In this document: piece by piece, positions 1 to 18,178 of the stretch
Numbering within the stretch: position 1 is the stretch's first letter
Layout: the number at the start of each line of letters is the position of its first letter
Source: a virus
Length of the DNA: 33,023 nucleotides
Strand: one strand, 5' to 3'
Virus record (IMG/VR): IMGVR_UViG_3300036830_000204
Location: 1-33,023 of that record
Notes under the pieces: generated by a model
What the model was told of the DNA's origin: nothing
The model's input: the letters and a program-made list of their open reading frames with translations, nothing else
The model's database searches: none
Position numbers and translations under genes: made by a program

Positions 1-127
1 GTAAGACATACTGCTGGTGCAGGCCCAACCTTACATCCTGGTGATGCTTTAACAGTTAACGGTGCTGTAGGTTCAGGAAACACAATTGTATTAGCTGGCG
101 CTACCGCTGGTGTAACCAACTACTTCT
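1..127. repeat. Terminal 127-base direct repeat (left copy), identical to 32897-33023
   Basis: Bases 1-127 and 32897-33023 are identical. Because both lie inside one continuous coat gene, this is the overlap left when a circular or circularly permuted genome is assembled, and the unique length is 32,896 bases. A length of 127 is a common maximum k-mer in short-read assemblers. Confidence 0.95.
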
Positions 128-4194: not shown

Positions 4195-4219
4195 TTTATC
4201 ATCATAAGGATATGATGCT

Positions 4220-4831
4220 ATGGGAATGGGACGTGGTGGTTCAATGGGTGGTTTGGGTGGCTTTTTAGGAGGCTTATTCGGTGATTCCGGAAGTCCCTAT
4301 AAAGATGCTATGAAAGAATATGAAAGATGGGCAGGCAAAGGCGAAGCAGCTCAAAATCCATTTCTTGACATGGGTAAGGGAGCTATTCCTGGATTTCAGG
4401 AATGGACTAATTCCATGAAAGACCCCTCCGGTTTTATCAATAAATTGATGGGTGGCTATCAAGAATCTCCTTATGCTAAATTTCAGCAAGAACAAGCCAT
4501 GCGTTCAGCCCAGAATATGGGATCAGCATCAGGATTAACAGGTTCAACTCCTCTTACACAATTTGCTCAACAAAATGCTAGTGACATTTCATCAAAGGAT
4601 ATGAATCAATGGCTACAAAACGTATTGGGAATAAATACTCAATATGGCCAAGGACTCAATCAACAGATTGGTTATGGTTCTCATGCAGCTGATATGCTGA
4701 CTCAGATGTTTGGAGATATGGGTAGGCAAATGGGTGAAGGTGCTTATGGTCAGCGAGCAGGTCAATTACAAGATAGATCAAATATGATTGGTGGTTTATT
4801 TGATATATTCAAAAATGGATTATTTGGATAA
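4220..4831 (+). CDS. Probable DNA ejection (injection) protein, gp7-like by position
   Basis: A 203-residue protein, very rich in Gly, Met, Gln and Ser. A glycine/methionine repeat opens the protein (MGMGRGGSMGGLGGFLGGLF) and is followed by long amphipathic helices with many glutamines. The composition and position (after the tail hub, before two more helical proteins) fit P22 gp7, one of three proteins carried in the head and ejected with the DNA into the cell envelope. P22 gp7 is 229 residues. The opening glycine stretch could act as a small membrane-active segment. The start is ATG behind AAGGA. Assignment rests on context and composition rather than a recognised domain. Confidence 0.65.
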   Translation: MGMGRGGSMGGLGGFLGGLFGDSGSPYKDAMKEYERWAGKGEAAQNPFLDMGKGAIPGFQEWTNSMKDPSGFINKLMGGYQESPYAKFQQEQAMRSAQNMGSASGLTGSTPLTQFAQQNASDISSKDMNQWLQNVLGINTQYGQGLNQQIGYGSHAADMLTQMFGDMGRQMGEGAYGQRAGQLQDRSNMIGGLFDIFKNGLFG

Positions 4832-4840
4832 GGATTAATT

Positions 4841-6163
4841 ATGGCACTCCCATTACCAAGAGTTGTTGCTGATGTCGGCCCCGGCGGTGGTATTGTGACT
4901 GCTGCGCGAGGTATTAATGCTTTGCGTGAAAGTGACTTAGACAATCAGATTAAAAAAGTTCAGGCACAATATGCTCCTTTGACGACACAAGCCGAAGCTG
5001 CATCAAAACTTGCCTATGCCAATTTAATGGCTCCTCAGTTTTTGTCAAAATTGATGGGACATCCTGAGATTTTAGCGAATATGTCGGAAGATCAAAGGAA
5101 TCAGGCATTAAAGATGATTTATAACGCTGGAACTGGTCAAGGAACTGGTGCCAATTTTATGAATAAAATGCCTCAATCGGGTGCTCAAGATGACTCGTTA
5201 TTTGGGATGTTGAAGAATAAACTGGGTTCTATTTTTAATCAAAGTCCACAACAAGGACAACAATCTCAAGCTCAAGCCCCCCAGAATGCATTAATGAGCC
5301 AACCACAACAACAGCAATTTAATCCTCAAGATGTTCAAGCTGCTGTACAGGCTTATCGAAATAGCCCAGAAGCACAACAGAAAGCGCAAACTGAGGGAAT
5401 GTTTACTATTCCAAATCAGAATGAATTAATGAATTGGTATAAACAGCAAGGAAATGCTCCTGTTGCCCAGCCAGCTATGGAAAAACCTGCTGTCACTTCA
5501 AAATCATGGCCTGAAAAATATGGTGAATTTAAAGGAATTGAAAAAGAAGGTGAAAAGCTAGGTGAATTACGTGCTGCTGCTATTGATGAATTTGGTGAGC
5601 AATATCAGCAAGCTATTCAGGCTGAACAACCTGTACAGCATCTAATGGATATGACTCAAAATCCCGTATTTATTAATATGCGGAACAAAATTCCATTCTT
5701 TCAGGATAAACAACTAACAGCATTAGCCAAATTGGGAACACCTGAAGAACAACGATTAGTCGGTGATTTTGTTACGACTGCAACCAATGCAGTAGCTAAT
5801 ACGGTTAATAATTTCCGTGGAAGAATTTTAGATAAAGAAATCACTATGGCAAATCAAATGAAGATTTCGCCAAATGATACGTGGAATGTCATGGTAGGAA
5901 AATTAGGTTCTATTGCAACTTTCAATGAGATGACTAAAGAGCGAGCTCGTATTGCTGGTCAACTTATGGAAAAGAAACACATGAATCGTGCAGATGCTGT
6001 TGAGAAAGCTGATAGCATGGTGGACGGTAAGGCTATTAGAAAGCAAATGGAAGGTAAATTAAATCCAAAACCATCTGATGCTGATATTGATTATATGGCT
6101 GAAAAATACAAGATTTCTGCTGATGAAGTTAGGAAAAGATTAAAAGCGAAAGGAATTTTATAA
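4841..6163 (+). CDS. Probable DNA ejection protein (gp20-like by position)
   Basis: A 440-residue helical protein. The N-terminus (MALPLPRVVADVGPGGGIVT) is followed by amphipathic helix (LDNQIKKVQAQYAPLTTQAE), a glutamine-rich linker at about residues 130-180 (QSPQQGQQSQAQAPQ), and a helical C-terminal half with many charged residues. P22 gp20 is 471 residues and is similarly low in beta structure. Such proteins are packaged in the virion and are thought to form a channel across the envelope. The stop overlaps the next ATG by one base (TAATG), so it is coupled to the third ejection-type gene. Confidence 0.65.
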   Translation: MALPLPRVVADVGPGGGIVTAARGINALRESDLDNQIKKVQAQYAPLTTQAEAASKLAYANLMAPQFLSKLMGHPEILANMSEDQRNQALKMIYNAGTGQGTGANFMNKMPQSGAQDDSLFGMLKNKLGSIFNQSPQQGQQSQAQAPQNALMSQPQQQQFNPQDVQAAVQAYRNSPEAQQKAQTEGMFTIPNQNELMNWYKQQGNAPVAQPAMEKPAVTSKSWPEKYGEFKGIEKEGEKLGELRAAAIDEFGEQYQQAIQAEQPVQHLMDMTQNPVFINMRNKIPFFQDKQLTALAKLGTPEEQRLVGDFVTTATNAVANTVNNFRGRILDKEITMANQMKISPNDTWNVMVGKLGSIATFNEMTKERARIAGQLMEKKHMNRADAVEKADSMVDGKAIRKQMEGKLNPKPSDADIDYMAEKYKISADEVRKRLKAKGIL

Positions 6164-16252: not shown

Positions 16253-16420
16253 TTACTTTTTATTCATGCCGTATAATGCGTATGCCATCGTAATCAAATG
16301 ATAAAGAATAGTACTGATCCATGAACTTTTATCACAATCCTTAATAACATTGAATCGACATAACGCATCATCCAACAAAGTAAGACCTTCTTTGATTAGC
16401 TCATCCTTAGGTACTTCCAT
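16253..16420 (-). CDS. Small hypothetical protein (55 aa)
   Basis: A 55-residue frame with ATG 16420 behind GGAGAGG, opening MEVPKDELIKEGLTLLDDAL. The C-terminal half (WISTILYHLITMAYALYGM) is a hydrophobic stretch, long enough to be a membrane segment or a buried helix. It lies between two leftward genes in an otherwise empty interval. Function unknown; an N-in small membrane protein is possible. Confidence 0.6.
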   Translation of the reverse strand: MEVPKDELIKEGLTLLDDALCRFNVIKDCDKSSWISTILYHLITMAYALYGMNKK

Positions 16421-16430
16421 ATTCCTCTCC

Positions 16431-16805
16431 TTATTTCATAATTTCCCAATCATTACTGCATAGACATTTAAAGGTTGGCATAAACTCATACTCAACCTGT
16501 CTACACATCGCCAAGTTGCCATTATCCACAAAGATAAACGAATCTAGTGTTTCATCACGGGTAATAGCTTTCTTTTGTTTCAACTCTTCTAATGCTTCCA
16601 AGAAAGAAAGTTTTCTACCATCACCATCTACTACTAACCAATCTTTGGAAAGTAGTAGGTTGGCATTACCATAGAAAGAAATGTTCTCACCCCGAAATGT
16701 TTTAATCGCATCATTAATCAGACGCAAATGCATGTAGGGTTCCCATTCCTTGCGTCTAATCTTTTTACCTGCTAACAATTCCTTGTGCGCTTTATCGAAA
16801 TTCAT
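16431..16805 (-). CDS. Tandem Tad2-like (DUF2829) protein, putative anti-Thoeris factor
   Basis: A 124-residue protein. The N-terminal half (MNFDKAHKELLAGKKIRRKE, then LSKDWLVVD) follows the DUF2829/Tad2 pattern: 'F--A---l--Gk-irR--W ... dll--DWevv'. Tad2 proteins sequester the cyclic ADP-ribose signal of Thoeris defence. The C-terminal half repeats the pattern (FLEALEELKQKKAITRDE, then FIFVDNG, then SNDWEIM), so the protein appears to be two fused Tad2-like domains, at residues ~2-60 and ~67-123. The second copy lacks the usual Trp after the Arg. ATG 16805 is chosen because the site AGGA is 9 bases upstream and MNF is the usual family start; an ATG 6 bases earlier is also possible. Ligand binding is inference. 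Confidence 0.72.
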   Translation of the reverse strand: MNFDKAHKELLAGKKIRRKEWEPYMHLRLINDAIKTFRGENISFYGNANLLLSKDWLVVDGDGRKLSFLEALEELKQKKAITRDETLDSFIFVDNGNLAMCRQVEYEFMPTFKCLCSNDWEIMK

Positions 16806-16823
16806 TTTCATTTATCCTGTCAT

Positions 16824-17303
16824 TCAGAATGGTATAGAATCATTTATAAACTCATCTGCTGGCTTACCAATCACATTGGACTTGCCAATGATATAATCCT
16901 CAATTACATTCTTATCAGGATATTTGGAACCTACTGGTTTACCATTTAGCTTATCAAAAGGTATTTCATTACCTTGCTGAGTTTTAACCTTAACTCTTAC
17001 ATGTTGGTTAGAAGCATCTTCTGGTGTAAACTTTTCATCCAGATATAGTTGTTCCTGACCAGAAGAGTCGCAGAAATGTTTTAATTTCCATAACATCTTC
17101 TCAGTGAAAACTAAAAAGTCCCTTATATCATGCGCATTACCTGCTTTGTCAAATACTGCAAGTGTCATATCAGCCATCACATTATTGGATTTGGACAGAG
17201 AACGGGTGGCAACTTTCACCACCGCGTCATATTCACCGTCTTCCAGAAGATTAAATCTTGCCTTCATCACATCTTCTTCATTTAGTGCTTTGTATAAACT
17301 CAT
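16824..17303 (-). CDS. Probable single-stranded DNA-binding protein (DUF669-like)
   Basis: A 159-residue protein. The core (FNLLEDGEYDAVVKVATRSL, then MADMTLAVFDKAGNAHDIRD, then FLVFTEKMLWKLKHFCDSSG) resembles DUF669 phage proteins that sit beside Sak4-type ATPases. The C-terminal tip FINDSIPF resembles the acidic DDDIPF tail by which SSB proteins recruit partners. Its start overlaps the stop of the Sak4-like gene by four bases (ATGA), a sign of paired production. Known Sak4 proteins are stimulated by a cognate SSB. DNA binding here is inferred, not shown by a recognisable OB-fold signature. Confidence 0.72.
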   Translation of the reverse strand: MSLYKALNEEDVMKARFNLLEDGEYDAVVKVATRSLSKSNNVMADMTLAVFDKAGNAHDIRDFLVFTEKMLWKLKHFCDSSGQEQLYLDEKFTPEDASNQHVRVKVKTQQGNEIPFDKLNGKPVGSKYPDKNVIEDYIIGKSNVIGKPADEFINDSIPF

Positions 17304-18151
17304 GCTGCTTCTCCTTGAATAGTAGATTTAAGATATTGAATGCATTTTTCCATTGCTTCCCGTGGCATTTCTGACCATTCTTCGGCAGAAGCCTTACTTT
17401 TCCACTTGCTATATACTTCCTCTGGTGTTTTAAGTAATTCGATTAATCTGGTTAGCTCTTTTACTTGTTCAACGGTAGCTAATTCCTGTGGTTTAGCATC
17501 ACGTTCTAATACTTCTCTTCCAAATCGATTAGCAATTTCATCATAACTAAATGGAAATGTATCAGTATCAGGGAATGTCTCAATACGTGACTTCTTCACA
17601 ATTCCAATACGTTTATCCCCACGTTTCTGTATTTCAAATACTAAATCAAACAAGTAATCTAACTTCTTGTAGCAATCAAAGGTTTGGCCTAATACCGCCA
17701 GGTTCTGACCATATTCATTCTTACTATGTGAGGTGATGATCACATTCATGTCTATGCGAAAGAGCAGGTTAAGCAACTGTTTCATGCGCTTATTGGCTTC
17801 ACCATAATGTCTGCCAAACTCTGTTCCTACTTTCTTCTCCGCCTTCTCTAATAAATCATTGTAAAGGTTAGTCAATGAATCAATGACCAATGTCTTATAA
17901 TCATGCTTGATGGTCAGCAATTGCTTTAACTCATTGACCATTTCCTCAAAATCTACTGTCATGAGTACCACACCACTGGCCTTATCAATTGCTTTAACAT
18001 ATTGAGGTTTGTTGGTAGAACCTTCTGTATCAATGATGTAGGGCTTCGGAAATTGTATCGCTGCCATTGTCTTACCCACACCTGCTGATCCATAGAATAA
18101 AGCTTTTAATCTTTGTTCTATCATTGCTGGTTTCTTTGCTCGTAAAGCCAT
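17300..18151 (-). CDS. Sak4-like RecA-family ATPase
   Basis: A 283-residue ATPase. The Walker A motif GSAGVGKT is at residues 21-28 and Walker B TLVIDSL at about 87-93, with IIDTEGS (39-45) and the sensor-like VIITSHSK at 137-144. This is the shortened RecA-core layout of phage Sak4 single-strand annealing proteins. ATG 18151 is chosen because AGGAG lies 8 bases upstream; an upstream TTG overlaps the site. It is co-translated with the SSB-like gene. The pair would promote annealing and recombination during phage replication. A general phage AAA/RecA-like 'nucleotide-binding protein' label would be the cautious alternative. Confidence 0.8.
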   Translation of the reverse strand: MALRAKKPAMIEQRLKALFYGSAGVGKTMAAIQFPKPYIIDTEGSTNKPQYVKAIDKASGVVLMTVDFEEMVNELKQLLTIKHDYKTLVIDSLTNLYNDLLEKAEKKVGTEFGRHYGEANKRMKQLLNLLFRIDMNVIITSHSKNEYGQNLAVLGQTFDCYKKLDYLFDLVFEIQKRGDKRIGIVKKSRIETFPDTDTFPFSYDEIANRFGREVLERDAKPQELATVEQVKELTRLIELLKTPEEVYSKWKSKASAEEWSEMPREAMEKCIQYLKSTIQGEAA

Positions 18152-18178
18152 GTTATATACTCCTATCAAATGTTGTGC

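Follow-up and report, generated by a model that had tools for sequence, protein, structure and literature searches.

Some phages use the Tad2 fold to sequester a bacterial alarm molecule. Phage sponge proteins have been described as oligomers built from single-domain chains; one Thoeris signal was the first ligand known, and several are known by now. The known Tad2 proteins (PF11195, formerly DUF2829), such as SPO1 gp34.65, ModTad2, SptTad2 and HgmTad2/AcrIIA7, consist of one domain which carries a WNGK and an SxxD motif and whose strands 2 and 3 are separated by a variable insert. The G-W-N-G-K loop and the S-x-x-D before the last helix were found in SPO1 Tad2, ModTad2, SptTad2, AcrIIA7/HgmTad2 and six sampled phage members. 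The gcADPR pockets of Tad2 involve the strand 1-2 loop, the strand 3-4 loop, strand 4, the strand 4-helix 3 loop and helix 3, and the WNGK loop, which connects strands 1 and 2, belongs to the region described as pocket-lining (PMC12043709).

Compared with these proteins, the protein studied here has two minimal repeats, lacks WNGK, and apparently has one Tad2 unit split across the chain. It is encoded in the window, which is the virus record IMGVR_UViG_3300036830_000204 at its full length of 33,023 bases (Table 1), and it shares with Tad2 the frame F-x-x-A...L...K-[IV]-x-R...W and DW-[ED]-[IV]. The preliminary description had placed the gene at 16431-16805; the ORF is real but reaches 16811, 16805 being the second ATG (M3), an alternative start at which the homologues begin. 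The dN/dS values of 0.12-0.18, obtained for window pairs with unsaturated dS, indicate that the ORF encodes a selected protein and is not a chance frame. PF11195, whose curated cut-off is 25 bits, matched the window protein twice, with 39.9 bits and an E-value of 6e-10 for the whole protein, and half 2 by itself stayed below the cut-off (16.7 vs 25 bits). In the homologues, the second halves of L005 and L009 matched PF11195 positions 2-72 of 73 and that of L079 positions 1-73 of 73, and the second half of L005 alone reached 33.2 bits. When the family profile was compared with the PDB, half 2 led to SPO1 Tad2 and SptTad2 and half 1 to ModTad2, with weak E-values (0.006-0.14). The NCBIfam profiles gave no match to the window protein, and neither did BLASTP between its two halves; the repeat was faintly visible by BLASTP in L001 and is otherwise shown by profiles and models. 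Taken with the homologues, these profiles and models back the two fused Tad2-type repeats and the asymmetry first described, and the window protein almost certainly contains a tandem Tad2-like repeat.

Table 1. Features of the tandem gene and its surroundings in the window, with the further contigs that carry the full tandem.
Feature	Position	Strand	Basis
Tandem Tad2-like CDS (126 aa)	16431..16811	-	ORF list; PF11195 in two stretches; homologues
Half 1, minimal Tad2-like repeat (residues 3-64)	16620..16805	-	PF11195 30.5 bits alone; H-E-E-E-H-E in model
Half 2, minimal Tad2-like repeat (residues 65-126)	16434..16619	-	PF11195 16.7 bits alone; H-E-E-E-H-E in model
Front of half 1 (residues 3-33), putative first piece of well-kept unit	16713..16805	-	54% identity; structural match starts at residue 1
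Middle (residues 34-90), putative second, degenerate unit	16542..16712	-	37.5% and 36% identity; opposite join 13.9 bits
End of half 2 (residues 91-126), putative second piece of well-kept unit	16434..16541	-	Structural match ends at 126/125
Upstream neighbour, DUF669 / phage SSB-like	16824..17303	-	Pfam and PHROG matches; synteny in relatives; same operon
Sak4-like ATPase / recombinase, same operon	17300..18169	-	AAA_24, phrog_124; synteny
55-aa ORF directly 3' of the tandem gene	16253..16420	-	Homologues in same place in L001, L004, L079, L088
17 further contigs with full tandem			L001, L004-L009, L013, L014, L044, L046, L050, L079, L087, L088, L091, L048 (record G409)

The predicted fold of the window protein and of its L005 homologue is that of Tad2. 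AlphaFold2 gave pLDDT 86 and pTM 0.67 for the former (9 sequences) and pLDDT 92.4 and pTM 0.73 for the latter (13 sequences), and in both models each half showed the order helix-strand-strand-strand-helix-strand (H-E-E-E-H-E). In VIA-align, SPO1 Tad2 matched the window model with Z 10.9 (1.5 A, 64 residues) and the L005 model with Z 10.8 (1.4 A, 62 residues), and the solved Tad2 chains ranked first, far above the first unrelated entries, which reached Z 4.1 and 2.6 in the two models; over the known Tad2s, the likeness came to Z about 10-11 and 1.4-1.8 A over 61-64 residues. Plain Foldseek gave weak E-values, 5e-3 at best, with probability 1.00.

The overlay on Tad2 agrees with a Tad2-like element order in each half, but not with two independent beads. 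One solved Tad2 chain spanned residues 1..126 of the window model and 1..125 of the L005 model, a match judged from its first and last aligned residues only. Since the match takes in the last strand of half 2, half 1 alone cannot account for it, and a single chain spanning the whole protein in both models indicates segment exchange between the repeats. On these models, the two repeats are most likely intertwined. Helix 1 and strands 1-2, at the front of repeat 1, would join the two strands, the helix and the last strand that make up the back of repeat 2, so that the joined pieces would rebuild one Tad2-type unit and the remaining pieces would make up a second, degenerate one. On the likeliest reading, the well-kept unit would correspond to residues about 1-32 and 91-126, of which the latter hold the F-M-P-[ST] and DWE motifs, and the middle of the chain to the degenerate unit. 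Against an exchange, AlphaFold2 with 9-13 related sequences can wrongly swap segments between repeats, and the N-G or D-G turns that link strands 2 and 3 are tight, which fits hairpins formed inside one repeat. Weighing these points, we lean slightly towards segment exchange between half 1 and half 2.

Alternatively, two ordinary Tad2 domains might be arranged as beads in a covalent dimer, two chains of which would form a Tad2-like tetramer trapping the Thoeris signal. Profiles recognise a minimal repeat in each half, and stand-alone versions of 57-62 aa exist (L015, L094, L095) which presumably fold alone. However, this arrangement is hard to reconcile with the superposition of a single Tad2 chain from the first to the last residue in both models, and neither half has the WNGK loop, and we consider it possible but rather doubtful.

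Sequence conservation in the family ran crosswise in the manner of the predicted exchange, of which it gives an independent hint. On the canonical Tad2 profile, the front of half 1 joined to the back of half 2 (taken together with the strand before it) scored 29.4 bits on average, compared with 23.5 for half 1, 17.5 for half 2 and 11-12 for the opposite join, and this join outscored both own halves in all 15 members; the scores are additive (the sums are about equal), and they therefore show which segments have been kept, not that the segments touch. With PF11195, the same join in the window protein reached 33.8 bits over positions 1-72 and the opposite join 13.9. Mean pairwise identity was 54% for the front and 37.5% for the back of half 1, and 36% for the front and 43% for the back of half 2. 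Thus the second half, called divergent in the preliminary description, has decayed in its front and has been kept in its back, and the back of half 1 has decayed as well. The crosswise pattern was absent from G006b, an independent tandem protein.

In a tree of the halves and the single-domain proteins, half 1 formed one group (100/95) and half 2 formed one group (71/80), which is most simply explained by fusion or duplication that occurred once, before the phage group spread. The homologues and the tree show that a minimal Tad2-like domain was duplicated or fused before this radiation. In the tree, which has few columns, both halves came out nearer the short stand-alone versions than canonical Tad2, a placement with weak support. 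These short stand-alone proteins (57-62 aa; L015, L094, L095 and, in part, phrog_6670) have the same repeat length and motif frame, and differ in having one unfused repeat instead of two. Escherichia phage N4 gp49 (phrog_872) is a longer protein with one PF11195 domain, and Pfam finds nothing Tad2-like in its first 80 residues. A parallel in layout, G006/L098 (IMG/VR 3300003321_000433), also combines two minimal PF11195 repeats in a single ~114-aa frame, but it is related to the tandem protein only at family level, comes as two adjacent genes, and its second gene is without crosswise decay. These two genes (L098 4998-5342 and 5347-5688), with two minimal Tad2-like repeats each, lie on an unrelated 32-kb virus contig. 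With tandem genes of its own in G006, the two-repeat arrangement recurs and is not unique; the architecture, considered new for the family at first, is new within the databases searched except for this unrelated contig. A further observation concerns Lactobacillus phage Lpa804 (L023), in which adjoining, mostly unannotated ORFs each start with a short Tad2-like stretch and resemble an array of paralogues.

The tandem proteins depart from the known Tad2s in motifs linked to ligand binding. WNGK was absent from both halves of all 15 aligned tandem proteins, and SxxD was missing from half 1 of every member and, with TFKC in its place, from the window protein. A looser form, [ST]xx[DE], was kept in half 2 of 8 of the 15 members (for example, SWKD in L008 and TYRD in L044), and here too the back of half 2 stands out as the conserved portion. 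The invariant residues, in window numbering, were M3, F5, R19, K21, W23, E42, S55, W58, F70, L77, P112 and W122. With WNGK missing in all members and SxxD lost in the window protein, the sequence gives no backing to the anti-Thoeris type assigned at first, and the Thoeris signal is an unlikely ligand of the tandem protein. By analogy with Tad2, the protein may bind a small nucleotide signal and self-assemble as Tad2 does; its pocket would be unlike the known ones, and the signal would hence probably not be 1''-3' gcADPR. In a further reading, which we regard as speculative, duplication would have freed the middle of the chain for a new surface or pocket, the ends would rebuild the Tad2 unit, and the result would be a sponge for some signal not trapped by any known Tad2.

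A Tad2 fold could also serve to bind a protein instead of a nucleotide, as in AcrIIA7, a PF11195 protein listed in the PDB as a type II CRISPR-Cas inhibitor. The AcrIIA7/HgmTad2 structures (8kbi series) matched our models with Z about 10, and the known small-molecule loop motif has been lost. However, AcrIIA7 was also solved with cADPR and cGG and so binds nucleotides too, and no link to Cas9 was seen here; this explanation appears improbable.

The operon runs leftward, with 12 bases between the DUF669/SSB-like gene and the tandem gene downstream of it, and in most relatives the tandem gene follows directly after sak4-ssb in the early operon, before a region of variable small genes. Such a position in the early operon is a usual one for accessory counter-defence genes. 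Relatives other than L001, L004, L079 and L088 carry different genes at the site of the 55-aa ORF, and in L001 a 267-aa protein with a long Ala/Tyr/Asp repeat run is encoded between ssb and the tandem gene (4198-5001). The tRNA and Rfam searches across the window gave nothing. The conserved site after sak4-ssb would also be explained if the protein assisted phage DNA replication or recombination instead of acting in counter-defence, and the gene was indeed present in six of the nine records of at least 32 kb found via terL (G003, G004, G005, G007, G409 and G411). However, the other three (G406, G407 and G408) are near-complete and have sak4 and ssb yet no tandem gene, and proteins of the Tad2 fold are known above all as signal traps, which makes a helper role quite unlikely in our judgement. 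We give about an even chance to the explanation we prefer, namely the tandem architecture with an early counter-defence role of the sponge type and a ligand other than those of known Tad2s. The protein is a conserved, uncharacterised two-repeat branch of Tad2, probably acting in counter-defence and probably with an exchanged fold. As a conserved two-repeat branch without the key ligand-loop motif, it is a candidate for a new signal, and it may illustrate how a homo-oligomer becomes a single chain in nature. With 126 aa it is compact, and its structure and binding are directly accessible to testing.

The distribution of the tandem was examined in viral and cellular sequences. The full tandem protein was found in 18 IMG/VR contigs, the window included, by pattern-and-tblastn scans, so that the two-domain protein first noticed here has 17 further members (Table 1); a tandem relative in L012 is cut short. 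Identity to the window protein was 31-74% in the aligned set. The single-domain protomer, a feature of the Tad2 anti-Thoeris sponge, is replaced in all 18 contigs by two repeats per chain. Searches of cultured phages by tblastn, with the window, L044, G006b and L005 proteins as queries, yielded no full-length relative, and plasmids yielded none either. Two pattern-limited scans of GTDB genomes gave no tandem relative and only two single-domain Tad2 proteins, and in 398 genomes drawn from the phylum of G001, PF11195 occurred in 10 genomes and never twice in one frame. Among the BFVD viral predicted structures there was no full-length twin, the best TM-score by query length being 0.40 among the matches listed, and a literature search of limited coverage found no paper on a tandem Tad2. 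A degenerate tandem DNA pattern gave 11 matches across all viral contigs, all of which were due to chance; this pattern fixes one codon of the first motif, requires GKK and would not recover the family of the window itself, and rare tandem forms may therefore exist.

The nearest cultured terL genes among the matches listed were 33-40% identical. In addition to the six terL-found records, the window, G008 and G417 have the tandem gene, the latter two having been found through the tandem gene itself. A separate single-domain Tad2-like gene was present in G406, G407 and G408, and in many loci such a gene lies between terL and portal. Both tandem and single-domain Tad2-like genes occur in G004, G008, G409, G413 and G414. 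On contig 3300047388_000335 (L008/L011), the tandem gene is found at both ends in slightly different copies, and the contig may overlap at its ends or be misassembled. The window has no single-domain Tad2-like gene downstream of terL; in L040/L041, L046, L050, L053, L056, L057, L061, L062, L065 and L075, a gene of this kind is located there, in the late module.
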